From positions 11,003 through 47,514 of the forward strand of contig PLKS01000133.1 in assembly GCA_003140665.1 (NCBI GenBank): 36,512 nt of DNA. Reading direction: 5' to 3'. Made by a program: the position numbers and the translations under genes. Shown in pieces: positions 1 to 19,159 of this stretch. The DNA is from Opitutaceae bacterium (lineage in GTDB: Bacteria; Verrucomicrobiota; Verrucomicrobiia; Opitutales; Opitutaceae). Positions within the stretch are counted from its first letter, which is position 1. Each line of letters opens with the position of its first letter. The notes beneath the pieces were generated by a model. It searched no databases and had not been told where the DNA came from. It saw only the letters and a program-made list of their open reading frames with translations.

Positions 1-165
1 GTCGAGGATCCCGCGCTTCTGCAGGGACTTTGCGGCCATCGCGACATCGACCGCCTTGCGGCCAGGGCGATTGAGCTCGGGCGCGAGCGGGGCTTGGTTT
101 TCGGATTGCCGGAGGTTCGCAGGGCCTGGAACGCCGCATGCGCCTCCGCAAGGCCGGGGCCCTGA
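1..165 (+). CDS. C-terminal end of a truncated upstream ORF; possibly Nif11-like C-terminal segment
   Basis: Frame 1 is open from base 1 to TGA at 163-165: VEDPALLQGLCGHRDIDRLAARAIELGRERGLVFGLPEVRRAWNAACASARPGP. The pattern 'DPALLQGL...LAARAIELGRERGLVFGLPEVRRAW' resembles Nif11-like domains (weak). The N-terminus lies outside the window. Confidence 0.45.
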   Translation, partial: VEDPALLQGLCGHRDIDRLAARAIELGRERGLVFGLPEVRRAWNAACASARPGP

Positions 166-1145
166 CCATGGCCGAATCGCCCTGGAGAGATTGGATGCCG
201 ATCGCGGTTCGCCTCCGCCAGGCCGGCTGCGTGGTGGACTGGTGCTATTTTGCCGGGATTCGCCCGACGGATCCGTTTTTCCAGCAGACGGTGAACCATG
301 CGCTCAGCGATCCGGCGCGGATGCTGTTTCGCCGGGAGACGCCGGTAGGGCACCTCGGGGACCTCGCCTGGGATTTTCCCGGAATAGCGCCCGCCGGGTT
401 CATCTTCCACCTTTCGCGGTGCGGATCGACCCTGGTTTCGCGCCTGCTGGCGACCCTCCCCCGGACCCTCGTCATTTCCGAGCCGCCCGCCCTCGACCAG
501 CTTCTGCACCTATCGGGGACCGGCGCGCCGGGTTCCTCCGAATCGGCACGGAGGGCCCTCCGGGGGCTCGTGAGCGCGATCGCCCAGCCGAGAAACGGCG
601 AGGACCGCCTTTTCATCAAGTTTGACAGCTGGCACGTGTGCGAACTGCCGGCGATCCTCGAGGCTTTCCCCGGGGTCCCCTGGATCTTCCTCTACCGCGA
701 TCCGGTTGAGATCCTCGTCTCACAGGACCGGATGCCGGGCATCCAGATGGTTCCCGGCATCATCGACCCCCGTCGACTGGGGCTGGACCCGGCCACGGTC
801 AATCCCGCCGCGCTCGATGGGTACTCGGCCCGCGTCCTGGCTCAATTCTGCGGCGCGGCCATCGAGAATCGCGGCAACGGGAGGGGCCTTTTTGTGAACT
901 ACCGTGAGCTTCCCGGCGCAATATTCGGAGCAATCTCCCGGCATTTCGGCCTGGAGATGACGCACGAGGAGCAGGCGACGATGGAAGAGGCGGCCAAATT
1001 CGACGCAAAAAGCCCCGGCTTCGTCTTTGAGGACGATTCGGCCGGGAAGCAGCGGGAGGCCAGCGACCGGATTAGGGAACTGGCCAAGGTTTGGCTCGCC
1101 GAGCCCTACGAAAAGCTGGAATCGATCCGACGCGCCCAGGCCTAG
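138..1145 (+). CDS. Sulfotransferase family protein (PAPS-type P-loop)
   Basis: 335 aa. Contains 'FIFHLSRCGSTLVSRLL' (5'-phosphosulfate-binding-like P-loop) and 'WIFLYRDPVEILVSQ' (3'-phosphate-binding-like). The alternative start ATG at 168 lies just after the upstream stop and may be the true start. Confidence 0.8.
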   Translation: MRLRKAGALTMAESPWRDWMPIAVRLRQAGCVVDWCYFAGIRPTDPFFQQTVNHALSDPARMLFRRETPVGHLGDLAWDFPGIAPAGFIFHLSRCGSTLVSRLLATLPRTLVISEPPALDQLLHLSGTGAPGSSESARRALRGLVSAIAQPRNGEDRLFIKFDSWHVCELPAILEAFPGVPWIFLYRDPVEILVSQDRMPGIQMVPGIIDPRRLGLDPATVNPAALDGYSARVLAQFCGAAIENRGNGRGLFVNYRELPGAIFGAISRHFGLEMTHEEQATMEEAAKFDAKSPGFVFEDDSAGKQREASDRIRELAKVWLAEPYEKLESIRRAQA

Positions 1146-1720
1146 GCGGGGACGGCGCGGGCGGACTCTGCCAGGATCAGGTCCCGCAGCCAGTCATTGA
1201 GCACGCAATCGATCACCAGGTGGATTCGGTCGGTTGCCCCCCGGTTCTCCACGCTGTGCGGATGCGTGAAGTCGATGTACCAGCACTCCCCCTCGTTCAT
1301 CACCACCCTTTGGTCATCGAGAAGGAAGATGACGCCGGGATTGGTGCGGACGGGGATGTGCAGGCGGATTTCACCGTCGGCGAAGCCCAACGCCAGGTCC
1401 GTGTGCTTGCGCACCACCGAACCGGGCTTCAGGCGCAGGAATCGCACGGCCTGCTGGGGGCATTGGAAATGGGCAAGGATCTCCCTGACGTACGTGCAGC
1501 GCTCGAGGAGCGGCGCGTCGGCAAAGGCCGTCTTTGCCGTGGGATCCGGGTAAATGTGGCGGGCCTTGCCCCCGACCGATCGCAGCGGGACAGCGCTCCA
1601 GTCACCCGTGTAGTACTGGGTGTTGAAATGGGGCACGAATTCCTCGGAGACGATCCCGTCAAGCTCCGCCTGGAGCCGGGCGGCGTCAAAGGAGCGGGAA
1701 AGTCGCAGGCTGGATTGCAT
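1142..1720 (-). CDS. Aspartyl/asparaginyl beta-hydroxylase-like 2OG-Fe(II) oxygenase
   Basis: 192 aa. 'VVRKHTDLALGFADGEIRLHIPVRTNPGVIFLLDDQRVVMNEGECWYIDFTHPHSVENRGATDRIHLVID' matches the Asp/Asn hydroxylase (PF05118-like) H...RxHxP...GExWxxDxxxxHxVxN...R pattern. Confidence 0.85.
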   Translation of the reverse strand: MQSSLRLSRSFDAARLQAELDGIVSEEFVPHFNTQYYTGDWSAVPLRSVGGKARHIYPDPTAKTAFADAPLLERCTYVREILAHFQCPQQAVRFLRLKPGSVVRKHTDLALGFADGEIRLHIPVRTNPGVIFLLDDQRVVMNEGECWYIDFTHPHSVENRGATDRIHLVIDCVLNDWLRDLILAESARAVPA

Positions 1721-1735
1721 GTCGTCCGGTAGAGA

Positions 1736-2245
1736 TCACCGGTTGCCGCCCGACGCAATTGCAGGCTTAGGGGACGGCCACTCCATTTTTACATACATTC
1801 CGCCAGCCTCCTCCCCCACCTCTGAAAATCCGAGGCGCCTGTACAGGTTTATCGCCCGGTTCCCCTTCACGACCGAGAGGCGTACCCCCAGGCCAGCCTT
1901 GGCCCCCTGGTCGAGCAATTCCGCGATGAGTTTGCGACCGATGCCCTTCCCCCTGAATGGGTGAAGGAGCGCGATGTCGACCAGGCATATCCCATCCCCG
2001 TCGCGCGCGACGAGCATCCCTCCCACGGGACGCTTCCCCAGCTCGATTATCGAATAGGAGGCGTCGGGAAACTGATTGCGATAACTGTGTTGCCGTGCAG
2101 CGAATTGCATCCGGAAAAAGGCCTCCTCCTGCTCCCGGCTCCATCCCAGTGAAGCCACCTCGTCCCGCCGGATTCCGGAATATATTTCGTAGAGAAACGG
2201 CTTGTCGTCCGGGCACGAGGCACGCAGCGTCACGTGATGGGTCAT
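1736..2245 (-). CDS. GNAT-family N-acetyltransferase
   Basis: From internal ATG: MTHHVTLRASCPDDKPFLYEIYSGIRRDEV...LLHPFRGKGIGRKLIAELLDQ...VVKGNRAINLYRRLGFSEV. The R-G-K-G-I-G acetyl-CoA loop and the 'N.A..LY.RLGF' motif are clear. The longer ORF to 2386 overlaps the divergent collar gene, so the start at 2245 is preferred. Confidence 0.88.
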   Translation of the reverse strand: MTHHVTLRASCPDDKPFLYEIYSGIRRDEVASLGWSREQEEAFFRMQFAARQHSYRNQFPDASYSIIELGKRPVGGMLVARDGDGICLVDIALLHPFRGKGIGRKLIAELLDQGAKAGLGVRLSVVKGNRAINLYRRLGFSEVGEEAGGMYVKMEWPSPKPAIASGGNR

Positions 2246-2305
2246 CGCCAGGCATTTCCTCTGATTTCTTTCGCGCCAAGCAAGACTTTTACCCGGACCT
2301 AGATC

Positions 2306-2830
2306 ATGAGCGAACCTTTCATCGCTGAAATAAGGATGGTCGGTTTCACTTTCGCGCCGGAAGGCTGGGCATTGTGCAACGGGCAAATCCTCAGCATTGC
2401 CTCGAACACCGCGCTTTTCTCCCTGCTAGGCACCAACTTTGGCGGCAATGGAACATCGACGTTCGGCCTGCCCAAACTCCAGGGTCAGGTCCCCATCGGA
2501 CAGGGCTCGGGTCCCGGATTGAACCCTATTGAGGTTGGGGAGTCGATGGGCTTGAATGGGATCACGCTCAACGCCAATGAGCTGCCGAGTCACACCCATA
2601 CCTTGGTGGCCGCCGGCAACCCGCCCACGACCCACAGCCCATCCGGCACCGCCCTTGCGACCCAACTGCGCAGCGCGGCTCCCATCTACACGGGCACCGC
2701 CCCGAACGTGACGATGGCGCCGCAGGCGATCGCGATAACCGGCGCCAACACGCCCTATTCAAACCTTCAGCCTTACCTTGTCGTCAATTTTGTGATCGCG
2801 CTCCAGGGAATATTCCCCGCCCGGAATTGA
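2306..2830 (+). CDS. Phage tail collar domain protein (MdpB/COG4675-like), copy 1
   Basis: 174 aa. MSEPFIAEIRMVGFTFAPEGWALCNGQILSI...LFSLLGTNFGGNGTSTFGLPKLQGQVPIGQG...LPSHTHTL...NLQPYLVVNFVIALQGIFPARN. Confidence 0.92.
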   Translation: MSEPFIAEIRMVGFTFAPEGWALCNGQILSIASNTALFSLLGTNFGGNGTSTFGLPKLQGQVPIGQGSGPGLNPIEVGESMGLNGITLNANELPSHTHTLVAAGNPPTTHSPSGTALATQLRSAAPIYTGTAPNVTMAPQAIAITGANTPYSNLQPYLVVNFVIALQGIFPARN

Positions 2831-2877
2831 TCCCGAGGACCAGGAACCAATCGCTCACGCCCTAAAGCGCCGCCACC

Positions 2878-3411
2878 ATGTCACAACCTTACGTTGGTGA
2901 AATCAGGATATTCGCGGGCAACTTTGCGCCCCAGGGCTGGCAGTTCTGCGCGGGTCAGACCCTGTCGATTTCCCAGTACGAGGTCCTTTTTACCCTCATG
3001 GGCACCACCTATGGGGGAAACGGGACGACCACGTTTCAATTGCCCGACCTGCGCGGCCGCTTTCCGATACACCAGGGGACGGGCGCCGGCCTTTCGACCT
3101 ATGTCATGGGCCAGCAAGGCGGCGCTGAATCGATAACATTGACCCAGGCCAACATGCCGACCCACAACCACCTCGTCGCGGCGGACAATGGTGCACCCAG
3201 TTCCCCGACGCGGACTCCGGCAAGCAATACCTATCTTGCCGCGACGCTTCGCAACGAGGCTCCGATTTACACCTCCGGGGCTCCCAACACATCGATGGGC
3301 CCCCTGGCGGTCGGCCATACCGGAATGGGGAACCCGATCCCGATTGGCCAGCCATGCCTTGGCATCTCTTTCATCATCTCGTTGTTTGGGGTCTACCCAA
3401 GCCGCAACTGA
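2878..3411 (+). CDS. Phage tail collar domain protein (MdpB/COG4675-like), copy 2
   Basis: 177 aa. GEIRIFAGNFAPQGWQFCAGQTLSI...LMGTTYGGNGTTTFQLPDLRGRFPIHQG...MPTHNHL...GVYPSRN. Confidence 0.92.
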   Translation: MSQPYVGEIRIFAGNFAPQGWQFCAGQTLSISQYEVLFTLMGTTYGGNGTTTFQLPDLRGRFPIHQGTGAGLSTYVMGQQGGAESITLTQANMPTHNHLVAADNGAPSSPTRTPASNTYLAATLRNEAPIYTSGAPNTSMGPLAVGHTGMGNPIPIGQPCLGISFIISLFGVYPSRN

Positions 3412-3456
3412 TCCCGAAGCCAGAGGCTATCGCCATTTCCTAAGCGTTTTCATCCC

Positions 3457-3969
3457 ATGTCCAACCCGTTTCTCGGTGAAATCAGGACGTTCAGCTTCAA
3501 CTTTAATCCCAAAGGCTGGGCGATGTGCAATGGCCAGACGCTGCCGATCAACCAGAACCAGGCTCTGTTTGCCCTGCTGGGCACCACCTATGGGGGAAAC
3601 GGGACGACCACGTTTCAGCTTCCCGACCTGCGGTCGCGCGTCCCGATGCACTTCGGCGCAGGTTTCGTCCAGGGCGAGATCGGGGGTTCGGAGACCACGA
3701 CGCTCCTGCTCTCCAATCTGCCACCGCATACCCACACCTTGAACGCCTACAATGGCGCGGCCACTACCCAGTCCCCGGGCGGAGCCTACCTTGCGGCCCC
3801 CGACGCACGCCTGGGAACGCCCATCTACGATGTGGCGACCCCGACGGCCAACATGGCATCCACGACGCTGGGGCCGGCCGGCGGGAGCACGCCGATCAGC
3901 AACATCCAGCCGTATCTTTGCGTTAATTTGTGCATAGCGATGGCCGGCATATTCCCGTCCCGGAATTGA
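3457..3969 (+). CDS. Phage tail collar domain protein (MdpB/COG4675-like), copy 3
   Basis: 170 aa. GEIRTFSFNFNPKGWAMCNGQTLPINQNQALFALLGTTYGGNGTTTFQLPDLRSRVPMHFG...LPPHTHTL...IQPYLCVNLCIAMAGIFPSRN. Confidence 0.92.
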   Translation: MSNPFLGEIRTFSFNFNPKGWAMCNGQTLPINQNQALFALLGTTYGGNGTTTFQLPDLRSRVPMHFGAGFVQGEIGGSETTTLLLSNLPPHTHTLNAYNGAATTQSPGGAYLAAPDARLGTPIYDVATPTANMASTTLGPAGGSTPISNIQPYLCVNLCIAMAGIFPSRN

Positions 3970-4011
3970 ATCGCGCCTGCCAGGACACTTTCGTTTCGGC
4001 TCCCTAATTCC

Positions 4012-6807
4012 ATGATTTTTTCCGCCGGCGCACATGCCCACCGTTTCCTTCGCAGGATATTCCTGGCGGGCATCAGCCTTGGGTTGGTTGCAGGGGCGCA
4101 GGCGGAAAGTTCCATAACGTTATATCCCGGCGATGCGATCGTGGCGGACGCCGGCTCAAACGACGGCACCTCGGGCGTCTTCTACGTGGCGGCCAGCACC
4201 GGAAATAGGATAGACTTCACCGGCTTTGGCGCGGAGGGAGAGGGCGCGGTGCTCGACACTCCCCAATTCGTTGTCGTCGCCCCGAACGGGCTGGTCTACT
4301 ATATCGAGGCGCTCGCTTCGGGGACGCTGAACCAGGTCATTGCGGTCAGCCCCACCAACCACCATCGCACAGCGGTCACGAGCACGCCCTTCACCGCCCC
4401 GACCGGCATGGCCTGGGACTACACAACCGGAATGCTCATTGTTTCCGACGCCGGCTCTTCGCCCACGACGGCCGCCCTCTTCAGCGTCAATCCGAGCTCA
4501 GGCGCGGAGACCGTCATCACCAGCAGCACCGTGGGCAGCGGCCCGGCCATCAACACCCCGCGGTTCCCCGCCGTCGGGCCGACGGGCGCGATCTATTATA
4601 TCGAGGCAACCCTGGGGAGCTCCGACCAGGTGATTTTCGTCAACGCGGCCAATGGCAACCGCACGACGCTCGCGAGCTCGCAGTTGAATGCCCCGACCGG
4701 CATGTCCTGGGACTTTGCAACCGGGCTGCTCGTCGTTTCCGTTGCCGGCACCTCGAACCTGAACTCGGGGATCATGAGCGTCAACCCCAGCAACGGGAAC
4801 TCAATCTTCATCACGGGCGACAGCATTTCCGGCGAGGGCGCCAACATCGACACACCGGAGTCGGCCACGGCCACCTCCCCCGGGGTCATCTATTACTACG
4901 AGCTCGTGGCCTCGCCAACGGCCAACAACGTGATCCAGGTGTCCGGAATGATTCGGGGCGTTCTCTCCGGCAGCGATGGCCCCGTCGGGGCGGGAACGGC
5001 GTTCGTCGCGCTCACCAGCGTCGCCGCCATTCCGGATGTCGCCACCCACTTCTCAGTCAGCGCGCCGGGGTCGGCCGTGGCGGGCGGGGCCATCACGGTG
5101 ACCGTCACGGCGCTGGACAATAACAACAACGTGGCGACCGGCTACGCGGGCTCGGTGCACTTCACCAGCTCCGACGGCGTGGCAAACCTCCCGGGCAATT
5201 CCACCCTGACGAGCGGGACCGGGACGTTCTCGGTCACCCTGAACACATCCGGGGCCCAGACGATCACGGTTTCGGACTCGGTGACATCCTCGGAGTCGGG
5301 AACCTCGGGATCGATAGCCACCACCACGACCAGCCCGAACCTGTACTGGACGGACACGTCGACCGGCAATCGCGTGATCTGGCTGATGAACGGGACCAGT
5401 TACGGATCGAGCGTGGCGCTCGGCAACGTCGCGACCAGCTGGGAGATCGACGGCACCGGAGATTTCGGCGGCGACGGCAACATCGACATCCTCTGGACAA
5501 ACACGACGACCGGCGAGCGTGTGATCTGGCTCATGAGCGGCAATACCTTCTCCTCGAGCGTGTCGCTCGGCGTCGTCGCGACCAACTGGATCATCTCCGG
5601 GGTCGCCGACTTCAACGGAGACGGCAAACCTGACATCCTGTTCACGAACACGACGACCGGCGAGCGCGTGATCTGGCTGATGAACGGGACCAGCTACGGC
5701 TCCTCCGTGTCGCTCGGCGTGGTCCCGGCCTACTGGTCCATCTCCGGGGTCGCCGATTTCAACGAGGACGGCTCTCCCGACATCCTGTTCAGGAACACGA
5801 CCACCGGTGAGGGCCTGATCTGGCTCATGGACGGCACCACGCACACCCTCGACGAGTCGATCGGGATCATTCCCGCGGAGCTGAGGATCTCGGCCATCGC
5901 CGACTACAACGGCGACGGCTCGCCGGACCTGCTCATGACCAACGCCGTGACCGACGAGCGCGTGATCTGGCTGATGAACGGCTACACTCACGCAAGCACG
6001 GTCTCGCTGGGCGTCGTCCCCTCGAACTGGGAGCTCTACCCGTCGGGCCTGGATCCGGTTGAGCTGGCGAAGCTCGACTTCAACGGCGACGGCCAGCCGG
6101 ACATCCTCTTTGAGAACACCACCACCGGGGACCTCTATGTCTGGCTGATGAACGGCACCACCTTCTCCTCCAGCGTCTTCATCGGCAATGTCGCCCCGCC
6201 GTGGCAGATCGTGGGGACCGGGGACTTCGCGGGCACCGGCAACGCCGACCTCCTGTGGATGAACACCTCGACCGGCGAAATCGTGATCTGGCTGATGAAC
6301 GGCACGAGCTTCGTCTCCGGCGTCTCGGTGGGCGCGGCGCCGGCCGGATGGACCATCAACGCCGTCGGCGACTTCAACGGCGACGGCTCGCCTGACATCC
6401 TGTTCACGAACACGACGACCGGCGAACGCGTGATCTGGCTGATGAGCGGCACGAGCTTCAGCTCGAGCGTCTCCCTCGGCATCCTGACCACGCAGTGGCG
6501 GATTGCGGACACCGGCGACTTCTACGGCGAAGGCCAGCCGGACATCGTCTTCCAGAACATGTCGACGGGAGACTGCGTCGTCTGGCTGATGAATGGCACC
6601 ACCGTCGAGGCCGCCGTCGACCTCGGCAACCCCGGCACGCAGTGGCAGCTCCAGGCGGCCGAGGACTTCACCGGCGCCGGGCAGCCGGACCTCGTCTTTG
6701 AGAACACCTCCACCGGCGACCGCTACATCTGGCTGATGAACGGCACCACCTTCGAATCCTCCGTCTACCTCGGCAACGTGGGGACACAGTGGCAGATCAG
6801 GAACTGA
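4012..6807 (+). CDS. Large secreted protein: N-terminal propeller-like repeats, Ig-like domain, C-terminal FG-GAP/VCBS-type repeats
   Basis: 931 aa with an N-terminal signal-like segment. Repeated 'NAPTGMSWDFATGLLVVS' units, then an Ig-like region (FSVSAPGSAVAGGAITVTVTALDNNNNVATGYAG...), then repeats of 'DFNGDGSPDILFTNTTTGERVIWLMNGT'. Confidence 0.85.
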   Translation: MIFSAGAHAHRFLRRIFLAGISLGLVAGAQAESSITLYPGDAIVADAGSNDGTSGVFYVAASTGNRIDFTGFGAEGEGAVLDTPQFVVVAPNGLVYYIEALASGTLNQVIAVSPTNHHRTAVTSTPFTAPTGMAWDYTTGMLIVSDAGSSPTTAALFSVNPSSGAETVITSSTVGSGPAINTPRFPAVGPTGAIYYIEATLGSSDQVIFVNAANGNRTTLASSQLNAPTGMSWDFATGLLVVSVAGTSNLNSGIMSVNPSNGNSIFITGDSISGEGANIDTPESATATSPGVIYYYELVASPTANNVIQVSGMIRGVLSGSDGPVGAGTAFVALTSVAAIPDVATHFSVSAPGSAVAGGAITVTVTALDNNNNVATGYAGSVHFTSSDGVANLPGNSTLTSGTGTFSVTLNTSGAQTITVSDSVTSSESGTSGSIATTTTSPNLYWTDTSTGNRVIWLMNGTSYGSSVALGNVATSWEIDGTGDFGGDGNIDILWTNTTTGERVIWLMSGNTFSSSVSLGVVATNWIISGVADFNGDGKPDILFTNTTTGERVIWLMNGTSYGSSVSLGVVPAYWSISGVADFNEDGSPDILFRNTTTGEGLIWLMDGTTHTLDESIGIIPAELRISAIADYNGDGSPDLLMTNAVTDERVIWLMNGYTHASTVSLGVVPSNWELYPSGLDPVELAKLDFNGDGQPDILFENTTTGDLYVWLMNGTTFSSSVFIGNVAPPWQIVGTGDFAGTGNADLLWMNTSTGEIVIWLMNGTSFVSGVSVGAAPAGWTINAVGDFNGDGSPDILFTNTTTGERVIWLMSGTSFSSSVSLGILTTQWRIADTGDFYGEGQPDIVFQNMSTGDCVVWLMNGTTVEAAVDLGNPGTQWQLQAAEDFTGAGQPDLVFENTSTGDRYIWLMNGTTFESSVYLGNVGTQWQIRN
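5341..6807 (+). repeat. Ten tandem 147-nt (49-aa) FG-GAP-like repeat units
   Basis: The [VY][IV]WLM codon block starts at 5374, 5521, 5668, 5815, 5962, 6136, 6283, 6430, 6577 and 6724. Spacing is 147 nt except 174 nt between units 5 and 6. Confidence 0.9.
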
Positions 6808-6847: not shown

Positions 6848-8353
6848 TCAGTTCGTAGGACCCGCTGCCTTGAAATACCTGTCGGCAAACGTGAGGAACG
6901 TGGGCCAGTCGGGGAGGTCGGTGTGGCCGCCGGCGTGCAGCCTGAACCCGATGTCGCCGTCGATCAGCGCGACGTCGGGGGCGGGAACCTCCGTCGTGCC
7001 GAGGTCCCGCCTGCCGAGCAGGCGGTAGACCGGCCCGGCATAGACGCAGGCCTTGAACTCCCCGACGGGGTCGGACCAAAGGTCCTGCGTGCCGCCCGTT
7101 ATGAAGACCGGCCGCGGGGCGATGAGGGCGATCAATTCGTGCTGGTCCACGGGCAGCCGGTCCCAGTGGCCGGCGTACTTGAGGAAGTTCCCGGCCATCC
7201 AGTGGTACTCGCCGGGGCCGCAGACATTGTCGACGGATTCGCCCACGTCATGGCGGTGAAGCTTCGCGCCGCCCTCTCCCGAGCAGCTCGAATAGACGAT
7301 CGCCCAGCGCGGGTCGAGCGCGGCCGCAAAAAGGGCCTCCTTGCCCCACCGCGAATGGCCCTCGATGCCGAGACGCCTCGCGTCCACGTCCCGGTCGGTC
7401 TCGAAATAGTCGATCGCGCGGCTCAGGCCCCATGACCAGGCGGCGAGCGCTCCCCAGTCGTCGGGCTTCCTCGACCTGCCCTGGTTGACGAGGCCGATGA
7501 TTCCCAGGTTGAGGCCGCCCCCGCTGTCCGCCTGGATCAAGTAGGTGTTGACGAGCGCGAAGCCCCAGCCGTGGGCGATGACCTGCTCCATCGCGGTCGG
7601 GCCTCCGGGCGCGGGGCCGAAGCCCCTGCCGGTCGTGTTCCAGCTCGCGACGACCATCACGGGCACCGGCCCGGGGGCGCCCGCCGGGATGTAAAGCGCG
7701 ATGGCGATGCTCGGGTTTGCCGAGGGGTAGCTGGAATTGTCGATGCGGCCCACGATGCGCTTCAGCGTGGCCGCGCCGTTGAGCGCGTCCCGGACGGTCT
7801 CGGCGACCTCCCATGTCACCGTGGGAGTATTCCTGGGGATCCTTCCATAGATCTCGGATTCGAAATCGCCGAGGATCTCCGGGCGCCGCCTGTTCCACCA
7901 CGTGTCGGCATCCCTCACCGGCTCGCCGTTCTTCAATGTCAGGACGTCGGGGATCGCAAAGCGGTCGGCCCTGGCCAGGTCGTAGTTCGACCAGTTGCCC
8001 CAGCTCGAGCGCACGATCGTGTGGCCCGGCACGTCGTCGGTCCAGTTTGGCGACGCCCCGCCGACCGGGTGCGTGTTCGCGGGCCGACGCGGGTCATCGG
8101 CCGGGGGCGGCAGCGAGCCTGGCTCCGCGAGATGCAGGAGGTCCATCATCCTCCCATGGTCCGCGGCCGCCAGTTCCCCCAGCCTGCGGCGTTCTTCCGC
8201 CGTGGGCATTCCGCTTGGGGTGGCGGACGGAACGGCGTCTACCGCCCAGGTCGGGCCTGGGACGGCGGCAAGCGCAAGGGAGCCGATGAACCCCATCAAC
8301 ATCCGGGATCGAACGGGGACCGGAACCGCGGAAAGGGGCGTCTCTTTCATCAA
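6848..8353 (-). CDS. CE15-like glucuronoyl methylesterase, secreted
   Basis: 501 aa (ATG 8350 is the likely start). Signal-like N-terminus; 'RRLGIEGHSRWGKEALFAAALDPRWAIVYSSCSGEGGAKLHRHDVGESVDNVCGPGEYHWMAGNFLKYA' with G-x-S-R-x-G-K nucleophile motif; 'LIALIAPRPVFITGGTQDLWSDP'. Confidence 0.85.
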   Translation of the reverse strand: MMKETPLSAVPVPVRSRMLMGFIGSLALAAVPGPTWAVDAVPSATPSGMPTAEERRRLGELAAADHGRMMDLLHLAEPGSLPPPADDPRRPANTHPVGGASPNWTDDVPGHTIVRSSWGNWSNYDLARADRFAIPDVLTLKNGEPVRDADTWWNRRRPEILGDFESEIYGRIPRNTPTVTWEVAETVRDALNGAATLKRIVGRIDNSSYPSANPSIAIALYIPAGAPGPVPVMVVASWNTTGRGFGPAPGGPTAMEQVIAHGWGFALVNTYLIQADSGGGLNLGIIGLVNQGRSRKPDDWGALAAWSWGLSRAIDYFETDRDVDARRLGIEGHSRWGKEALFAAALDPRWAIVYSSCSGEGGAKLHRHDVGESVDNVCGPGEYHWMAGNFLKYAGHWDRLPVDQHELIALIAPRPVFITGGTQDLWSDPVGEFKACVYAGPVYRLLGRRDLGTTEVPAPDVALIDGDIGFRLHAGGHTDLPDWPTFLTFADRYFKAAGPTN

Positions 8354-8551
8354 GGGCCTCGGCAGGGGCTGCCCTGGCGTGGCTGGACCTTGGATGGGGC
8401 AATCCCTCCCGGACCTCGATGCTAATCCCCTGGCGCCCGTGACGCCAGCCGACGGTGCGCCGAGGCCAGAAACTGCTCGAAAGTCGGCTCATTCGCACCC
8501 AGACCTTACGGTCGAGCCGCCCCGAATCCCCCTTTTCGTCACCACGAGCAC

Positions 8552-10672
8552 ATGGCGAACGCATTCCCATTCCTGGATCCCGACCTGCCCCTGGATCAAC
8601 GCGTCCGGGATCTCGTGGGACGGCTCACCCTGGAGGAAAAGATCGACCAGATGCTGCATGAGAACAACCCGGTCGGCCGCCTGGGCGTGCCCGCCTACAA
8701 CTGGTGGAACGAAGCCTGCCACGGTGTCGGCCGCAACGGGCGGGCCACCGTCTTCCCGCAGGTGATCGGGCTGGGCGCCACATGGAATCGCGCCCTCGTG
8801 CGGCGCGTCGCGAGCGTGATTTCCGACGAGGCGCGGGCCAAGCACCACGCGGCGATCGCCGCGGGGCGGCGCGGACAATACCAGGGCCTCACCTTCTGGA
8901 CGCCCAACATCAACATATTCCGCGACCCGAGATGGGGCCGCGGACAGGAGACGTTTGGCGAGGACCCGTACCTGACGGGCGAGCTCGGCGTGGCGATGGT
9001 GCGGGGGCTGCAGGGCGACCATGGGCGCTACCTTAAGGCTGCGGCCTGCGCCAAGCACTACGCCGTGCACAGCGGACCCGAGCGGGAGCGCCACGGCTTC
9101 GACGCGCGGCCCACCCAGAAGGACCTCTTCGAGACCTACCTCCCGGCATTTGAAAAACTCGTCCGGGCGGGCGTCGAGGCGGTTATGGGCGCCTACAACC
9201 GCACGCTCGGGGAGCCCTGCTGCGGCAGCAAGCTCCTCCTCGTGGACGTCCTTCGCGGCCGCTGGGGCTTCCGCGGCCACGTCGTCAGCGACTGCGGCGC
9301 CCTCGATGACATCCACATCCATCACAAGGTGACGCGCAACGCAGCCGAGTCCGCGGCCCTCGCGGTTCACAACGGCTGCGACCTCAACTGCGGCCGGACG
9401 TACCACGACCTCCTGGCCGCCGTGGGCGGGGGCCTCGTCGCCGAGGCGGAGATCGACACGTCGCTCGGCCGCCTTCTGGCCACCAAGATCAGGCTCGGCA
9501 TCCTGGACCCCCAGGAGCGCGTGCCATGGTCCCGGACGCCGGTCTCGATCATCGATTGCGACGCCCACCGCGCCCTTTCCCGGCGGGCCGCCGTGGAATC
9601 GATCGTGCTGCTGAAGAACAACGGGGTCCTCCCGCTCCGGCGGGACCATGAGAGCATCCTGGTCACCGGCCCGACCGCCGCCAACACCAGCGCGCTTCTC
9701 GGCGACTATTTCGGGGTTTCGTCCCGGCTCATAACCCTTCTGGAGGGCATCACCGAATCCGCGGCGGAAGGCTGCCGCGTCGTCTATCGCACCGGCTGCC
9801 CCCTGCTGGGGCCCGCCGCCCCCGGCGTCAACTACACCTATCCCACCGCCGCGGAGTCCGAAATCACCATCGCCGTGCTCGGCCTCGATCCCTCGCTGGA
9901 GGGGGAGGAGGGCGACGCCGTCGCCTCGCCGACCGACGGGGACCGCGACTCCATCGAGTTGCCGCGGGTGCAGCTCGAATTCCTGATCGAGCTTCGAAGG
10001 CACGCAAGGAAGCTCGTGGTCGTCCTTACCGGCGGAAGCGCGATCGCGGTCCCGGAGGCCCAGGACCTCGCCGATGCCGTTCTTCAGGTCTGGTACCCGG
10101 GCTGCGAAGGCGGCCGCGCGCTCGCCGACGTGCTCTTTGGGGGCGCTTCGCCCTCGGGCAAGCTTCCCGTGACCGTGCCCTATCGCACCGCGGACCTGCC
10201 TGCGTTCGCCGACTATGGCATGCGCGGCCGCACCTATCGCTTTTCGACGATCGAGCCGCTCTACCCGTTTGGATTCGGGCTGGGCTACGCGAAGCTCGAG
10301 TACGGCCCGCTCGAACTGGGCGCCCCCACCCTTGCCTCCGGGCAGGAGGTGGCGCTGCGCACGACCGTCGCCAATGTCGGGTCCGTCGCGACCGAGGAGG
10401 CGGTGCAGTGCTATGTCCAGCCCCCGCGCGAATGGCCGGACGCCCCTCGCGCAACGCTGGTCGATTTTCAGAAGATACCGGTGCCGGCCGGCTCGACGGC
10501 CAGGGTCGAATTCCACCTTCCCGCGGGCGCCTTCGCGCAGGTCGACTCGGAAGGCCGCAGCGTCCACGTTCCCGGCCGCTACCGCCTGGTGGTGGGTTCC
10601 GCCTCGCCGGGCCTGCGCGCGCAGGCCCTGGGCGCGCCGGCGCCCGCCACAGCCGAAATCATCCTCGTCTAG
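8552..10672 (+). CDS. GH3 glycoside hydrolase, beta-xylosidase-like, with C-terminal FnIII-like domain
   Basis: 706 aa. 'LGVPAYNWWNEACHGVGRNGRATVFPQVIGLGATWN', 'KHYAVHSGPERERHGFDA', 'GHVVSDCGALDDI' (nucleophile region), 'YPFGFGLGYAKLEYGPL'. No evident signal peptide. Confidence 0.92.
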   Translation: MANAFPFLDPDLPLDQRVRDLVGRLTLEEKIDQMLHENNPVGRLGVPAYNWWNEACHGVGRNGRATVFPQVIGLGATWNRALVRRVASVISDEARAKHHAAIAAGRRGQYQGLTFWTPNINIFRDPRWGRGQETFGEDPYLTGELGVAMVRGLQGDHGRYLKAAACAKHYAVHSGPERERHGFDARPTQKDLFETYLPAFEKLVRAGVEAVMGAYNRTLGEPCCGSKLLLVDVLRGRWGFRGHVVSDCGALDDIHIHHKVTRNAAESAALAVHNGCDLNCGRTYHDLLAAVGGGLVAEAEIDTSLGRLLATKIRLGILDPQERVPWSRTPVSIIDCDAHRALSRRAAVESIVLLKNNGVLPLRRDHESILVTGPTAANTSALLGDYFGVSSRLITLLEGITESAAEGCRVVYRTGCPLLGPAAPGVNYTYPTAAESEITIAVLGLDPSLEGEEGDAVASPTDGDRDSIELPRVQLEFLIELRRHARKLVVVLTGGSAIAVPEAQDLADAVLQVWYPGCEGGRALADVLFGGASPSGKLPVTVPYRTADLPAFADYGMRGRTYRFSTIEPLYPFGFGLGYAKLEYGPLELGAPTLASGQEVALRTTVANVGSVATEEAVQCYVQPPREWPDAPRATLVDFQKIPVPAGSTARVEFHLPAGAFAQVDSEGRSVHVPGRYRLVVGSASPGLRAQALGAPAPATAEIILV

Positions 10673-10712
10673 CCGGCGAAGCCGCAGAAGTTGTCCCACC
10701 GACCCCCACCCC

Positions 10713-12227
10713 ATGAGCGACACCACGCAGAAATTATCCGTCGGCGAGAAGCTCGGCTACAGCTGCGGCGACGCGGCGGCCAACTTCGTCTTCATGACGA
10801 TGGTCCTCTTCCAGTCGAACTTCTACACCGACGTCTTCGGGCTGGCCGCCGGCACCGCGGGGACGATTATCCTCATCGCCCGGCTCTGGGACGCCTTCTT
10901 CGACCCGCTCGTGGGCGTGCTGGCCGATCGCACCCATTCGCGCTGGGGCCGGTTCCGGCCGTGGGTCCTCTTCACGGCGCTGCCGTGGGCGGCGATCATG
11001 TACCTCGCGTACCGGACGCCCTCGGGGCTGGGCGGGAGCGCCATGGTCGCCTACGCCCTCGTCACCAACATCCTTCTGATGACCCTCTACTCGATGAACA
11101 ACATGCCGTATTCGGCACTCGGCGGCGTGATGACCGGCGACGTGCACGAGCGGGCAAAGCTCAATTCCTACCGCTTCATCGCCGCGAACATCGCGCAGTT
11201 CGTGGTGGGCGGCCTCACGCTGCCGCTGGTCGCCAAGTTCGCGGGCGCCGACCATGACAAGCAGCGGGGATGGGCCATGACGATGGGACTCTGGGCGGTG
11301 ATCTGCATGGTCCTCTTCGTGATCACCTTCGCCACCACGAGGGAGCGGATCCACCCGGAGCCCAAGCAGAGGTCCACGCCGAGGCAGGATTTCGGGGACC
11401 TGCTGACGAACAGCCCGTGGGTCGTCATGTTCCTGATGACGCTCCTGCACTTCGGGCTCCTTTCGCTGCAGGGCGGCGCGCTGTACAATTACTTCCACTC
11501 CTACGCCGACAAGGGCGCCATGTTCGACGGGCTGCAGACGATTCACCTGACGGCGGCGCCTCTCGCCGCGGGCGGGCCCGCGCCCGGCGGCGTCCTCGAG
11601 TGGCTGGGCTACATCGTGCACGCCGACAGGGCGAACCTGGCCAACTCGAACGTCGCCGACGTCTTCAACAGCATCATCAACATGCTCGGCAAGATCGTGG
11701 TCATCACGGTCATCCTGCTCTCCCCCTTCCTCGCGAGAAGATGGGGCAAGAAGTCCGTCGCGATCGCGGGCTTCGCCATGTCCGCGGTCACCGCCGCCGC
11801 CTTCTACACCGTGGCGCCGACGAACGTTGCCGGGATGGTCCTCTTCACCATCCTCGGCGCGGCGGTCTATGCCCCGACGATCCCGCTCATCTGGGCGATG
11901 TTCGCCGACGTGGCCGATTACTCCGAATGGAAGAACGGGCGCCGGGCCACCGGGGTGATCTTCGCGACGATCTGCTTCGCCATCAAGGCCGGCCTGAGCC
12001 TCGGCTCCGCGTCGTTCCTCTGGCTCATGAGCATGTACGGGTACGCCGCCAACCAGCCCCAGACCGCCCGGACCCTCGAGGGCATCCACATGTGCTCGAC
12101 CGTCTACCTGGCCGTCCTCTTCGCCGTCTGCACGGGACTGCTCCTGCTCTACAAGATCAACAAGGGCCTGACGCACCGGATCGCCGACGAGCTCGCCGCG
12201 CGGCGCAGGAACTTCGCCGCGGCCTGA
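10713..12227 (+). CDS. GPH/MFS family oligosaccharide:cation symporter
   Basis: From ATG 10713: MSDTTQKLSVGEKLGYSCGDAAANFVFMTMVLFQSNFYTDVFGLAAGTAGTIILIARLWDAFFDPLVGVLADRTHSRWGRFRPWVLF...; typical GPH N-terminus and 'RxWDAxxDPxxGxxxDRTxSRWGRxRPW' motif; hydrophobic throughout. Confidence 0.93.
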   Translation: MSDTTQKLSVGEKLGYSCGDAAANFVFMTMVLFQSNFYTDVFGLAAGTAGTIILIARLWDAFFDPLVGVLADRTHSRWGRFRPWVLFTALPWAAIMYLAYRTPSGLGGSAMVAYALVTNILLMTLYSMNNMPYSALGGVMTGDVHERAKLNSYRFIAANIAQFVVGGLTLPLVAKFAGADHDKQRGWAMTMGLWAVICMVLFVITFATTRERIHPEPKQRSTPRQDFGDLLTNSPWVVMFLMTLLHFGLLSLQGGALYNYFHSYADKGAMFDGLQTIHLTAAPLAAGGPAPGGVLEWLGYIVHADRANLANSNVADVFNSIINMLGKIVVITVILLSPFLARRWGKKSVAIAGFAMSAVTAAAFYTVAPTNVAGMVLFTILGAAVYAPTIPLIWAMFADVADYSEWKNGRRATGVIFATICFAIKAGLSLGSASFLWLMSMYGYAANQPQTARTLEGIHMCSTVYLAVLFAVCTGLLLLYKINKGLTHRIADELAARRRNFAAA

Positions 12228-12256
12228 GCCGGCGCGGCCGCGGGAACCCTTCCGGA

Positions 12257-13480
12257 ATGCGCGCACTCCGAATCCTGCCGCTGCTGCTCGGCCTGGCCGG
12301 GGCCTGTCGCGCGGCCGCTCCCCTGCCGGGCGACGGCGGCGCGTACCACAACCTGTTCCACGAGCTCCTCGGCAAGGGCGACGCGGAGATCGACGCGAAG
12401 GTCTCCGCCGCCTGGAGCCAGCTGTTCCTCGGCGCCGGCGACACGCAGCGCCTCTTTTATCCCGTCGCGGGGGACATGGCGTACGTCCCCGACGTCGCCA
12501 ACCACGATGTCCGCACGGAGGGGCTGTCCTACGGCATGATGATCTGCGTGCAGTTGGACCGGAAGGCGGAATTCGACCAGATCTGGAGATGGGCGAAGAC
12601 GAACCTGTACCACCCGGCGGGCCCCTACAGCGGTTACTTCGCATGGCATGGGGATTTCCAGGGCAGGCAGATCGACGCGGGGCCTGCGCCGGACGGCGAG
12701 GAGTGGTTCACCACCGCGCTGTTCTTCGCCGCGCACCGGTGGGGCGACGGCTCCGGGATGCTCGACTATGATGCGCAGGCCCAGGCCATCCTGCGCGCGA
12801 TGCTCCACAGGGGGGAGGATTCCGGCGGCGTCGGGGCGACCAGCATGTTCGACGCGGCGGCAAGGCAGGTCGTCTTCGTCCCCGGCGGGGCCGGCGCACA
12901 TTTCACGGACCCTTCGTACCACCTGCCCTTCTTCTACGAGCTGTGGGCGCGATGGGCCGCCGCGCCGCGGGACCGCGCGTTCTGCGCCGACGCCGCCAAG
13001 GCCAGCCGCGCGCTCTTCAAGCTGGCCGCTGATCCCACGACGGGACTCATGCCCGACTACTGCGGTTTCGACGGCCGGCCCATCGTCCGCCGCGGCCACG
13101 AGGATTTCCGCTACGACGCCTGGCGAACGCTGTGCTACCCGGCAATGGATTATTCCTGGTTCAACCCCGATCCCTGGGAGGTGGAACGCAGCAACCGCGT
13201 CCTGCGTTTCCTCGCGGCGCAGGGCCCGTCGTGCCCCGACCGGTTCAAGCTCGACGGCGCGCCGGTCTCGACCGACACCAATTCTCCGGGCCTCTCGGCG
13301 ATGGCCGCGACCGCCGGCCTGGCGGCGGATCCCGATGTCGCCCGGCCCTTTGTCGGCCGCCTTTGGGACATGGAGATCCCCTCCGGGCATTTCCGCTATT
13401 ACAATGGTCTTCTCTACATGCTGGCGCTCCTTGAAACCAGCGGCCGGTTCAGGATCATCGGCCCAGCTCCAGGCCCCTGA
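12257..13480 (+). CDS. GH8 reducing-end xylose-releasing exo-oligoxylanase-like
   Basis: 407 aa. Signal-like N-terminus; 'VRTEGLSYGMMICVQLDRKAEFDQIWRWAKTNLYHPAGPYSGYFAWH', 'APDGEEWFTTALFFAAHRWGDG', 'YDAWRTLCYPAMDYSWF'. Confidence 0.9.
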   Translation: MRALRILPLLLGLAGACRAAAPLPGDGGAYHNLFHELLGKGDAEIDAKVSAAWSQLFLGAGDTQRLFYPVAGDMAYVPDVANHDVRTEGLSYGMMICVQLDRKAEFDQIWRWAKTNLYHPAGPYSGYFAWHGDFQGRQIDAGPAPDGEEWFTTALFFAAHRWGDGSGMLDYDAQAQAILRAMLHRGEDSGGVGATSMFDAAARQVVFVPGGAGAHFTDPSYHLPFFYELWARWAAAPRDRAFCADAAKASRALFKLAADPTTGLMPDYCGFDGRPIVRRGHEDFRYDAWRTLCYPAMDYSWFNPDPWEVERSNRVLRFLAAQGPSCPDRFKLDGAPVSTDTNSPGLSAMAATAGLAADPDVARPFVGRLWDMEIPSGHFRYYNGLLYMLALLETSGRFRIIGPAPGP

Positions 13481-13485
13481 TCCCG

Positions 13486-15630
13486 ATGCCTCCCAGACCG
13501 CCCGCATTGCGCCGCTTCGCCGCCAGGGCTTGCCGCATGCCGGCGATGGTCGCGTTGGCCGCGGCGCTTGCCTGCCGCGCGTCGGCCGAGGACGGCTACC
13601 GCCTCTGGCTGCGCTACGACCGCATCACCGACAGGGCGCTGAGGACGGGGTATGCCGAGGGCGTGCAGAAGGTCATCCTCGAGACGCCCACGGGGGCCGA
13701 CTCGCCGGCCGTGTCGGCCGCCCGCGCCGAGCTCACCGCGGGGATGCGCGGCCTGCTGGGGAGCGAGGTGTCGGTCGTCCTTGAAAAATCCGCCGGGCAG
13801 GTTGCCGGCGCGGGAGCCGAGGGCTATTCGCTCGCGAGGCGGGGGGACAGCGCGGTGGCGATCGCCGCCAACAGCGATGCCGGGGCCCTCCATGGCGCAT
13901 TCGCTCTCCTGCGCCACCTGCAGACCCACAGGCCGATCGGGGGCCTCGCCGTCACGAGCGCCCCCCGCATCCAGCGGCGAATACTGGATCACTGGGACAA
14001 CCTCAATGGGACCGTCGAGCGCGGCTACGCGGGAAATTCGCTCTGGGAGTGGTTCGTCCTGCCGGATTACAAGACGCCGCGCTACCGGGACTATGCCAGG
14101 GCCTGCGCGTCCATAGGGCTGAACGGCTCCGTGCTGACGAACGTGAACGCCGACACGCTGGCGCTGACCCCGGCCTACCTTGAGAAGGCCGCGGCCATCG
14201 CCGGCGAGCTGCGCCCCTACGGAATACGCACGTACCTGTCGGCCCGTTTCAGCGCGCCCATCGAGCTCGGCGGCCTCAGGACGGACGACCCCCTGGACCC
14301 CGCCGTCATGGCCTGGTGGCGCGCAAAGGCCGACGAAATATACCGGTACATCCCCGATTTCGGCGGCTTCCTCGTGAAGGCCAATTCCGAGGGCCAGCCC
14401 GGGCCGCAGGATTTCGGCCGCACGCACGCCGACGGTGCGAACATGCTCGCGGACGCCCTCGCGCCGCACGGCGGCATCGTCATGTGGCGGGCGTTCGTCT
14501 ATGAGGTGCAGCCGGGCGTGGACCGGGTGAAGCAGGCCTACAGGGAGTTCACGCCGCTCGACGGCAGGTTCCGGCCGAACGTCGTCGTCCAGATCAAGAA
14601 CGGGCCGCTCGACTTCCAGCCGCGCGAGCCCTTTCACCCGCTCTTTGGCGCGATGCCCCGCACCCCCCTCGCGCTCGAGCTTCAGATCACCCAGGAATAT
14701 CTCGGGGCTTCCATCCAGCTCGCCTACCTCGGGCCGCTTTTTCAGGAGGCGCTGCGCTCGGACACCCGCACCCGGGGCCCCGGGTCCACGGTGGCGCGCA
14801 TTGTCGACGGCAGCCTGGACGGCCACTCGCTCTCGGTCATAGCGGGCGTCGCCAACACGGGCAAGGACCGAAATTGGACCGGCCACCCGCTTGCCGCCGC
14901 CAACTGGTATGCCTTCGGCCGCCTGGCATGGGATCACACGCTCGATTCAGGCGACATTGCCGAGGAATGGACGCGCATGACGTTCTCCAGCGACCCCGAC
15001 GTGGTCGCGGCGCTCGGCGCAATGCTGCGCACCTCCCGCGAGACCGTCGTGAACTACTCGATGCCGCTCGGCCTCCATCACATCATGGCCACGGACCACC
15101 ACTATGGTCCCGGACCTTGGGCCGCCGCGGGCAGGCCGGACTGGACCCCCGCGTACTATCATCGCGCCGACGAGAAGGGCCTCGGCGCCGACCGCACGGC
15201 CACCGGCACCAATGCGCTTGAGGAATATTCGCCGGAGGTCGCGCGCGCCTGGGGCGATACATCCTCCTGCCCCGAGGAGCTCCTGCTCTGGTTCCACCAT
15301 GTTCCCTGGGACTACAGGATGAGGTCGGGCAGGATCCTCTGGGACGAGCTCTGCCTGCGCTACCAGCGCGGCGTCGACGGCGTGCGCCAGCTCCAGCGCG
15401 ACTGGGATTCGCTTGCCGGCCTGGTCGACGGCGAGCGCTTCGCCCATGTGCAGGCGCTCCTCCGGCGCCAGGAAAGGGACGCCCGCGAGTGGCGCGACGC
15501 CTGCCTGCTCTATTTCCAGCAGTTCTCGAAGCGGCCGCTGCCCGGCGGGGTTGAGCCGCCGGAACATACGCTGGACTATTACGAGGCCGTCCAGCTGCAC
15601 TACGTGCCCGGCACGCCCAGCGGAAAATAG
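13486..15630 (+). CDS. GH67 alpha-glucuronidase
   Basis: 714 aa. 'IQRRILDHWDNLNGTVERGYAGNSLWEW', 'YARACASIGLNGSVLTNVNA', 'GFLVKANSEGQPGPQDFGRTHADGANMLADALAPHGGIVMWRAFVY', 'LWFHHVPWDYRMRSGRILWDELCLRYQRGVDGV'. Confidence 0.95.
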   Translation: MPPRPPALRRFAARACRMPAMVALAAALACRASAEDGYRLWLRYDRITDRALRTGYAEGVQKVILETPTGADSPAVSAARAELTAGMRGLLGSEVSVVLEKSAGQVAGAGAEGYSLARRGDSAVAIAANSDAGALHGAFALLRHLQTHRPIGGLAVTSAPRIQRRILDHWDNLNGTVERGYAGNSLWEWFVLPDYKTPRYRDYARACASIGLNGSVLTNVNADTLALTPAYLEKAAAIAGELRPYGIRTYLSARFSAPIELGGLRTDDPLDPAVMAWWRAKADEIYRYIPDFGGFLVKANSEGQPGPQDFGRTHADGANMLADALAPHGGIVMWRAFVYEVQPGVDRVKQAYREFTPLDGRFRPNVVVQIKNGPLDFQPREPFHPLFGAMPRTPLALELQITQEYLGASIQLAYLGPLFQEALRSDTRTRGPGSTVARIVDGSLDGHSLSVIAGVANTGKDRNWTGHPLAAANWYAFGRLAWDHTLDSGDIAEEWTRMTFSSDPDVVAALGAMLRTSRETVVNYSMPLGLHHIMATDHHYGPGPWAAAGRPDWTPAYYHRADEKGLGADRTATGTNALEEYSPEVARAWGDTSSCPEELLLWFHHVPWDYRMRSGRILWDELCLRYQRGVDGVRQLQRDWDSLAGLVDGERFAHVQALLRRQERDAREWRDACLLYFQQFSKRPLPGGVEPPEHTLDYYEAVQLHYVPGTPSGK

Positions 15631-15645
15631 GCCGGATCAGCGACC

Positions 15646-17313: not shown

Positions 17314-17318
17314 GGCGC

Positions 17319-18092
17319 TCAGAATCCTATGCTGACGCCGCCGTCGACCGGCAGAACCACCCCGGTTACAAACCCGGCGGCCGGCGACGTCAGATAGACC
17401 GCCGCCCAGCCGATGTCCGCGGGCTGCCCGAGCCGTCCCATCGGCGTGCGCCCGAGGACCTTGTCGCGCCGGGCCGGATCCCCCGCGAGCGCCTTGCGCG
17501 ACATCTCCGTCTCAATCCAGCCGGGCGCAATCGCGTTCACCCGGACGCCATGGGGTGAAAACTCGGTCGCGTATCCCCTCACCATGCCGACGTAGGCGGA
17601 TTTTGCCGCCGTGTAGGCGATGACCAGCGGAATGCCGAACAACGATGCCATCGACGCGGTGAAGAGGATGCTTCCGCTCTTGCGGGCGATCATGGAGGGA
17701 ACCACGGCGCGCACCAGGGCGTGGGCGCCGAGGACGTGCGTCTGGAGCACTCTCCCGAACTCGTCGGGCGTCGTGTCAACGGCGGCCTTCTTGAGGTGGA
17801 CACCCGCATTGTTCACCAGGCAGGTGATCGGGCCGGCCGCGGCGCTTGCACGTTCGACGAGGGCAGCAGCCTCGTCGAGCCGAGTCACATCGTGCACGAT
17901 GTAGCTCGAACCGTCGCCGAGTTCGCCGACAGCCGCCGCCAGCTCGGCCTCGCGGCGGCCCACCAGGACCACGCGCGCGCCGGCGGACCGCATGGCGCCC
18001 GCGATGGCCAGCCCGATGCCGGTGCCCCCGCCGGTGATGACCGCGACCTCGCCATCCAGGGAAAATGCGGCGGGAAATGCTGGATTCTTCAT
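17319..18092 (-). CDS. SDR-family oxidoreductase, probable D-mannonate oxidoreductase / fructuronate reductase by context
   Basis: 257 aa. '[18 protein letters not shown]' (Rossmann), '[12 protein letters not shown]', '[27 protein letters not shown]' (S...YxxxK), C-terminal '[10 protein letters not shown]'. Function from the ATGA overlap with UxuA. Confidence 0.85.
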
Positions 18093-19159
18093 GCGAGCCC
18101 GAGAGATTTCATCTCAGCCTTCATGTATCCCATCGCGTAGGCCATCCCGGAATGCCAGGGCGCCGCGCACGCCATCTGTGGCGTGTGATCCGGAACGAGC
18201 ACCCCGTCGAACTTGTTCCTCTTAAGGATCTCGAGCACCCGGTGCATATCCACATCCCCGTCGTCGATGAAGGTCTCCCTGTAGGTCGGCACCTTTCCCG
18301 TGACGTTGCGAAAATGCACGTACCCAAGCCGCTGTTGGCGGCTGAAATCGTCGACGACGTCGTAGATGTCCCCCTCGGTCATCTCAGCAAGGGACCCGAT
18401 GCAGAACTCAAGCGTGTTGGCCGGGCTGGGATTCAGGTCGATGAGCTTCTGGTAGAACCGCGGCTGGTAGACGAGCCGCGGCTGGCCGCGGACGAAGGGC
18501 ATGGGCGGATCGTCGGGGTGGGCTGCAAGCTTCACGCCGGCCTCTTCCGCCACAGGCAGCACCTCGCCGAGAAATCGGTCGAGCCGGCGCCACAACTCCT
18601 CATGGGTGATGGCGGGCACCTCGCCCGGCGGCGCATGGGTGTCATAGACCATGTTCCACACCATACCGTTGAACATCGGCGGGTCATAGGGGCCCTCCAT
18701 GCCGACGGACCGGGCCTCCCCCCTCGCATAGTTGCCGGTGGTGCGGCCGGCCACGCCGGCAATGCTGAAATTGTAGCCCATCATCGGGATCCCCGCGCGT
18801 CCCATTCGCCGGAGGATGGTCTTGACGTTCTCGATGTGCTGCGCGCGCCTTGGCCCGTCGAGAAGCACGTCGTGCCAGTGGGCAGGGTCAAAATTCTCTA
18901 TGGCCTCAAGCTTGAGGCCGGCCGCCTCGACGTCGCTCCGGAGCGCCATCATCTCCTCAAGGGTCCAGAGCTTGTCGGGATCCCCAGCCAGTCCCCAGCC
19001 CCGGTCGGTGCCCGTGGGCTGGCTGTCACGGGCCGCCTGCGAGCTTCCCCGGAAATAGTCGACGAGGTGCGCCACGATGTGCGTGGCGCCCGCCTGCCGC
19101 GCAAACTGGAAGTTCTCGCGCGTGAGCATGTGGCGGTAGAGGCCAAGTCCGAGCTTCAT
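18089..19159 (-). CDS. uxuA: Mannonate dehydratase
   Basis: 356 aa. '[36 protein letters not shown]', '[32 protein letters not shown]', '[12 protein letters not shown]', '[33 protein letters not shown]'. Confidence 0.9.

Follow-up and report, generated by a model that had tools for sequence, protein, structure and literature searches.

Stand-alone tail-collar proteins and their predicted terminal tailoring in an Opitutaceae bacterium

The collar locus

The window analyzed here is a stretch of 36,512 nucleotides from an Opitutaceae bacterium (GenBank assembly GCA_003140665.1, contig PLKS01000133.1, positions 11,003 to 47,514 of the forward strand). Near its start, three genes for stand-alone tail-collar proteins lie beside genes for a short 2-oxoglutarate (2OG)-Fe(II) hydroxylase (HYD), a sulfotransferase (ST) and a GNAT N-acetyltransferase. 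Comparison across genomes reveals a conserved gene set, co-occurrence of HYD with collars and a correlation between HYD and a C-terminal Asn in the collars. These observations point to a chromosomal collar system that belongs to no phage and whose proteins are tailored at their ends, a reading to which we assign a probability of about 0.66; the chemical steps, their order, export and role are predictions from sequence.

The window opens with the 3' end of a DUF6916 gene (PF21880; positions 1 to 74, plus strand; 49.1 bits in Pfam, cut-off 27). This gene starts upstream of the window (contig C218, L044:7532-8077), ends at about window position 74 and encodes a protein whose N-terminus, judged by eye, resembles a twin-arginine translocation signal. 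ST follows on the plus strand at 168 to 1145, its longest open reading frame (ORF) starting at 138, and belongs to the 3'-phosphoadenosine-5'-phosphosulfate (PAPS)-dependent type (PF13469; 28.5 bits, cut-off 27). HYD, a member of a PF05118 subfamily (E = 3e-20, 73 bits, cut-off 22.6), occupies 1142 to 1720 on the minus strand and is convergent with ST, which it overlaps by 4 nt. A gap of 15 nt separates it from GNAT (PF00583 by Pfam; minus strand, 1736 to 2245, longest ORF 1736-2386), whose sensible ATG at 2245 leaves 60 bp to the first collar gene. The collar genes, all on the plus strand, encode proteins of 174 residues ending in GIFPARN (collar 1, 2306 to 2830), 177 residues ending in GVYPSRN (collar 2, 2878 to 3411) and 170 residues ending in GIFPSRN (collar 3, 3457 to 3969). 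Their matches to PF07484 have E-values of 7e-25, 3e-29 and 1e-29, respectively, and score 87-102 bits against a cut-off of 24. The codons of the C-terminal residues Asn174 (2825 to 2827), Asn177 (3406 to 3408) and Asn170 (3964 to 3966), also on the plus strand, are the hydroxylation sites predicted by comparison. Beyond collar 3 lies a plus-strand gene for an FG-GAP repeat protein of 931 residues (4012 to 6807; Pfam), apparently secreted by virtue of an apparent signal sequence. This protein is the window's instance of the large surface proteins often found next to collars. The draft genome (3.85 Mb, 278 contigs) contains no other collar genes and no PF05118 protein besides HYD.

The ORFs and Pfam matches reproduce exactly the layout given in the initial annotation, with its three collars, its 60-bp and 15-nt gaps and its convergent HYD and ST genes. 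The absence of further phage morphogenesis genes near the collars, also remarked there, is borne out: no tail tube, sheath, baseplate or tape-measure gene was recognized in either the window or the neighborhoods listed for related loci.

A gene set shared across phyla

Chance does not account for the association of these genes, which is real and spans phyla: other genera and phyla carry the same set. The initial annotation had allowed that co-occurrence might be confined to close relatives; the set instead recurs in six phyla, with collars and GNAT, and in a subset HYD and ST as well, found in Verrucomicrobiota, Acidobacteriota, Bacteroidota, Planctomycetota, Chloroflexota and Pseudomonadota. 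Its core consists of one to three stand-alone collars, GNAT, DUF6916 and often a giant surface protein with a signal peptide. GNAT lies beside collars in 20/27 Acidobacteriota, 24/40 Myxococcaceae and 11/14 Opitutaceae loci, and DUF6916 in 17/27 of the Acidobacteriota loci. Among ten plasmid collar loci inspected, GNAT is present in eight, DUF6916 in seven and a large ORF in nine; most of the plasmid records listed carry collars at three places. Neither HYD nor ST was found in these ten loci, and both are therefore accessory members, absent from most collar sets. ORFs in related loci come mostly from simple longest-ORF calling, and their gene starts and neighbor sizes are approximate.

Of 150 Opitutaceae genomes surveyed, 12 have PF05118 and 22 have collars. 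The short HYD adjoins collars together with GNAT and ST in four genomes (G000, G065, G023 and G109) and in a looser arrangement in G040, while G135 carries HYD and ST on one contig and a collar and GNAT on another. A HYD-profile scan covering 85,000 species genomes found the same neighbors in Acidobacteriota (L077, L083), Chloroflexota (L078), Planctomycetota (L103), Oceanospirillaceae (L122), Sphingomonas (L127) and Bacteroidota (L090, L096, L128, L129, L141). GNAT and HYD are fused into a single gene in two loci (L064, L066), and HYD is fused to a conserved neighbor of about 165 residues in two others (L108, L121). This conserved protein, which has a HEAGH motif, adjoins HYD in four further Bacteroidota loci (L090, L096, L102, L141); the one example scanned had no Pfam match. 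In the window's own genus, collars and PF05118 are absent from 6/6 other genomes searched, so the set is patchy there, probably through horizontal gain or frequent loss.

Variants of the neighborhood were also seen. In Bacteroidota, GNAT is usually replaced by a formyltransferase and a periplasmic-binding-protein homologue that apparently lacks a signal; homologues apparently without a signal peptide lie beside collars in L141 (PF13458), L096, L128 and L142. Five Flavobacteriaceae loci (L181, L197, L201, L207, L210) carry single signal-peptide collars in a conserved gene order unlike the triplet type. On two Azospirillum plasmids (L147, L274), a collar triplet and GNAT sit inside a lasso-peptide-like cluster holding lasso B2, asparagine synthetase, PqqD and 2OG-Fe oxygenases. 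An Asticcacaulis plasmid (L154) has a dense cluster of sulfotransferase and Asp/Asn hydroxylase genes beside a TonB receptor, with no collar in view.

The hydroxylase and its occurrence with collars

HYD comprises 192 residues and consists of the oxygenase domain only. His106-x-Asp108, His155 and Arg165 are invariant in 38 sequences, the metal and 2OG residues align with those of 4p7w, and the structure model is confident, with a predicted local distance difference test (pLDDT) score of 92.8. By both structure and sequence, HYD lies nearest to L-proline cis-4-hydroxylase and proline 3-hydroxylase, followed by the Asp/Asn β-hydroxylase AspH. It lacks the tetratricopeptide repeat (TPR) of AspH proper, and no epidermal growth factor (EGF) domain is among the families listed for the gene set. 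It would be chemically reasonable for a relative of free-amino-acid hydroxylases to act on a C-terminal residue, which offers a free carboxylate.

HYD tracks collars across genomes. Strong HYD matches, defined as those scoring over 200 bits against profile A1 or, in Opitutaceae, as the short form, coincide with collars in 29 of 31 genomes against 12.6 expected (p=5e-13, shared ancestry uncorrected); by group, the unbiased draws give 6/6 in Opitutaceae, 4/5 in Flavobacteriaceae, 4/4 in Acidobacteriota and 15/16 in Myxococcaceae. Among genomes selected through the HYD scan, 36 of 36 carry collars. In Myxococcaceae (Myxococcus) and in Flavobacterium, HYD is not adjacent to the collars, yet the genomes carry both. 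The initial annotation had left room for a hydroxylase conserved without collar genes; the HYD subfamily proves almost confined to collar-bearing genomes. Full-length PF05118 proteins occur in four Opitutaceae genomes, which have no collars. HYD matches of 90-145 bits were considered as the same enzyme and rejected; Acidobacteriota genomes with such matches lack collars.

The last residue of the collars

The presence of HYD predicts which residue ends the collars. Collars ending mostly in Asn are found in 28/28 genomes with HYD versus 10/60 without it, across four clades (stratified exact p=7e-14). The contrast holds in Opitutaceae (6/6 versus 0/6), Flavobacteriaceae (3/3 versus 5/18), Acidobacteriota (4/4 versus 3/20) and Myxococcaceae (15/15 versus 2/16, the remaining HYD-less genomes ending mostly in Gly). 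Counted per collar, Asn is C-terminal in 42/43 with HYD versus 25/94 without, and in 34 additional HYD-bearing genomes from other groups it forms 63/68 collar ends. On reading the collar ends, FPSRN is nearly constant with HYD and the residues are mixed without it. Among tests of alignment columns and residues (n=885), C-terminal Asn ranks first with z=7.07, the runner-up reaching 4.60. Phylogenetically independent pairs, taken from well-supported branches of a collar tree that leaves out the last four residues, give about seven as predicted, none against and two tied (median p 0.016). Two genomes with a decayed or divergent HYD (an internal stop in G618, a truncation in G635) still have collars ending in Asn, as expected after recent loss of HYD. 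This correlation gives strong support to the hydroxylation that the initial annotation had proposed and directs it to a specific residue: HYD probably β-hydroxylates the C-terminal Asn of the collars.

Three other explanations bear on this correlation. HYD and ST may modify the large secreted neighbor, with its Ca-binding FG-GAP or Ig-like repeats, much as AspH acts on EGF domains, the collar C-terminus merely tracking lineage. The window's FG-GAP protein has many DxNxDG-type loops and a large secreted gene often adjoins the collars, but the large neighbors share no common domain, and in most Myxococcaceae the large protein is not beside the collars, though the C-terminal correlation is strongest there. 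A large-neighbor substrate would also leave it unexplained that the link to HYD peaks at the last residue of all columns and survives the independent-pair test, and we consider it unlikely. Comparably unlikely is that HYD makes a small molecule, either a free hydroxy-amino acid or a peptide natural product, that is used with collars which are not themselves substrates. The nearest solved structures act on free proline, Nif11-like proteins before ST in several loci recall peptide natural-product clusters and the Azospirillum collars sit in a lasso-type cluster; even so, this leaves unaccounted for why the collar C-terminal residue follows HYD. Less probable again is that Asn is kept at the C-terminus for another reason, such as folding or contacts within the trimer, and that the collar types needing it accompany HYD by coincidence. 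Asn is indeed common without HYD in Acidobacteriota (14/47 HYD-less collars) and Flavobacteriaceae (9/22), but closely related Myxococcus collars turn to Gly where HYD is absent, nested within a HYD-bearing clade, and the collar of an Opitutaceae genome with a HYD fossil (G003) ends in Ser.

The sulfotransferase and the acetyltransferase

ST belongs to the PAPS-dependent sulfotransferases by its PF13469 match and its PAPS motifs, of which RCGSTL is invariant or nearly so and RDPVE is conserved across the family. Sequence reading places an APS-kinase-like gene (APS, adenosine-5'-phosphosulfate) next to ST in L122 and L129. Close ST homologues occur in the tested HYD-bearing Myxococcaceae, in some HYD-bearing Acidobacteriota and in Opitutaceae with or without HYD. 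In four HYD-less, ST-bearing Opitutaceae, the collar C-termini are S, S, SS and T. One of them, G003, retains a HYD fossil of 27 residues (157-183) between GNAT and ST, in which the 2OG-binding-type Arg is replaced by Gln. Ser and Thr already bear a β-hydroxyl, the group that HYD would add to Asn. On this basis, ST is proposed to sulfate the β-hydroxyl at the collar C-terminus, at odds that we place just short of even. The sulfation of collars suggested by the initial annotation is thus consistent with a pattern, that of Ser/Thr ends where ST is kept and HYD is lost.

Immediately before ST, four loci have either a small Nif11-like protein or an N-terminal extension of that kind (L070:6512-6769, L078:6575-6811, L048:10443-10673 and, at the N-terminus of ST, L047). 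The Nif11-like domain exceeds its Pfam cut-off only in Myxococcus (L070) and is weak elsewhere. Among features of ribosomally synthesized and post-translationally modified peptides, no core peptide was identified, and no Nif11-like protein was found in the window.

Collar starts of the form M-[S/A/T] make up 87% of 101 in GNAT-bearing loci and 21% in loci with a formyltransferase or binding protein instead of GNAT, a comparison confounded with phylum. Together with the gene neighborhood, these N-termini are what speaks for the acetylation of collars in the initial annotation, and acetylation of the collar N-terminal Ser/Ala by GNAT is a tentative assignment, slightly more so than that of ST. 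An N-terminal code in Bacteroidota, with formyltransferase in place of GNAT, was considered and weakened by MSTEPF starts in four formyltransferase loci and by MDPF starts in two GNAT-bearing Myxococcaceae.

Collars at the cell surface

The collar structure model is poor outside the collar domain (pLDDT 71.8, predicted template modeling score 0.47), probably owing to a trimeric state, and the collars are probable trimers related to the receptor domains of phage short tail fibers. Their best structural and profile matches are phage tail fibers. Among the matches listed, phage relatives reach at most about 36% identity and plasmid relatives up to 56%; HYD has four weak matches among 50,697 phage records. 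It is highly improbable that the collars are left over from phages or tailocins, with the enzymes as passengers, for although PF07484 and the structural matches lead to phage tail fibers, the set occurs without adjoining phage genes, its phage relatives are distant, HYD is nearly absent from phages, and collar triplets with GNAT are conserved across phyla. The surface role suggested in the initial annotation is a prediction.

A Pfam scan of 19 large neighbors found SprB, type IX secretion system sorting tail, autotransporter, SLH and Ig-like domains, which are lineage-specific routes to the cell surface. Signal peptides on a few Flavobacteriaceae collars fit an extracytoplasmic role.

A model of terminal tailoring can be drawn from these elements. 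The collars would be produced along with a large surface protein that is exported, and would be modified in the cytoplasm. HYD would hydroxylate the β-carbon of the C-terminal Asn, using the free α-carboxylate as its free-amino-acid hydroxylase relatives do, and ST would add sulfate to the resulting Asn β-hydroxyl. In lineages that keep ST and have lost HYD, a C-terminal Ser or Thr would provide the hydroxyl instead. GNAT would acetylate the N-terminal Ser or Ala, and the finished collar would be presented alongside the large surface protein, as a fiber or adhesin. The complete picture, a cross-phylum surface-fiber system whose collars are finished at both ends by N-acetylation, C-terminal Asn β-hydroxylation and O-sulfation, is more doubtful than any one of its parts.

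Several findings weigh against terminal tailoring. Asn ends 27% of HYD-less collars; HYD is therefore not needed for Asn, and the correlation is one-sided. Two strong-HYD genomes of the draws lack a collar (G291 and G645, the latter a fragmented assembly), the collars of G276 have another architecture without the canonical C-terminus, and three HYD genes scored as present contain an internal stop or frameshift (G313, G410, G440). Close ST is absent from most tested HYD-bearing Flavobacteriaceae and from two HYD-bearing Acidobacteriota, so sulfation cannot be universal, and the Ser/Thr pattern has a small base of four genomes (p=0.012). In Azospirillum L274, ST is present and the collars end in N, A and N; this ST probably belongs to the lasso-peptide cluster. 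Most collars have no signal peptide to account for their export.

Neighboring genes

Downstream of the collar locus, window positions 6848-19159 hold an apparent glucuronoxylan utilization cluster. It opens with a glucuronyl esterase-like gene (PF22244, Pfam) and includes, by eye, GH3, a sugar transporter, GH8-like, GH67-like and GH43-like genes, an SDR and a mannonate dehydratase-like gene.

Significance

Each protein family here is already known; what would be new is the system and the proposed modification. In the open-access literature, nothing relevant was found on the gene combination, on DUF6916 or on the 'microcystin-dependent protein' MdpB, no function or modification was found reported for COG4675/MdpB, and no description was found of a hydroxylase/collar tailoring system. 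COG4675 collars are widespread, yet their function is not known and annotations usually treat them as parts of phages. The predicted triple of enzyme, substrate and residue gives a direct experimental handle on them. If the prediction is true, hydroxylation of a protein's C-terminal residue by a 2OG enzyme, with the hydroxylated residue then sulfated, would be a new type of protein modification; to our knowledge, a sulfated terminal residue of this kind is not known in proteins. The need for a hydroxylase would also tie surface modification to oxygen and 2-oxoglutarate. The switch between HYD, Asn and Ser is a natural experiment in the co-evolution of enzyme and substrate.

Comparison with known systems

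HYD has PF05118 and the double-stranded β-helix fold in common with AspH, which hydroxylates Asp/Asn in the EGF domains of proteins. AspH, however, is a TPR-oxygenase that is known to lack the Asp metal ligand, whereas HYD has about 190 residues, is apparently cytosolic and keeps the His-x-Asp...His arrangement, and its predicted target is a C-terminal Asn rather than an EGF domain. L-proline cis-4-hydroxylase (4p7w/4p7x) and proline 3-hydroxylase (1e5r) provide the best sequence match (E 1e-19), the best structure match and the same HRD/H/R active-site pattern, but these enzymes of about 290 residues act on free amino acids and have no known link to collars.

The window collars share the collar domain and an HxH motif with the T4 gp12 short tail fiber and the cyanophage A-1(L) tail fiber (1ocy, 8kec). 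Unlike these, they are stand-alone non-phage proteins of about 175 residues, often three paralogues in a row, accompanied by GNAT and DUF6916. By name and domain, they are of the same type as the COG4675 'microcystin-dependent protein' (MdpB-like), and COG4675-type proteins are repeatedly listed in soil metaproteomes (PMC5579227).

The predicted role of ST is closest to that of RaxST, which in Xanthomonas is likewise a bacterial sulfotransferase acting on an exported protein, RaxX. RaxST differs in that it targets Tyr and has no known hydroxylase partner.

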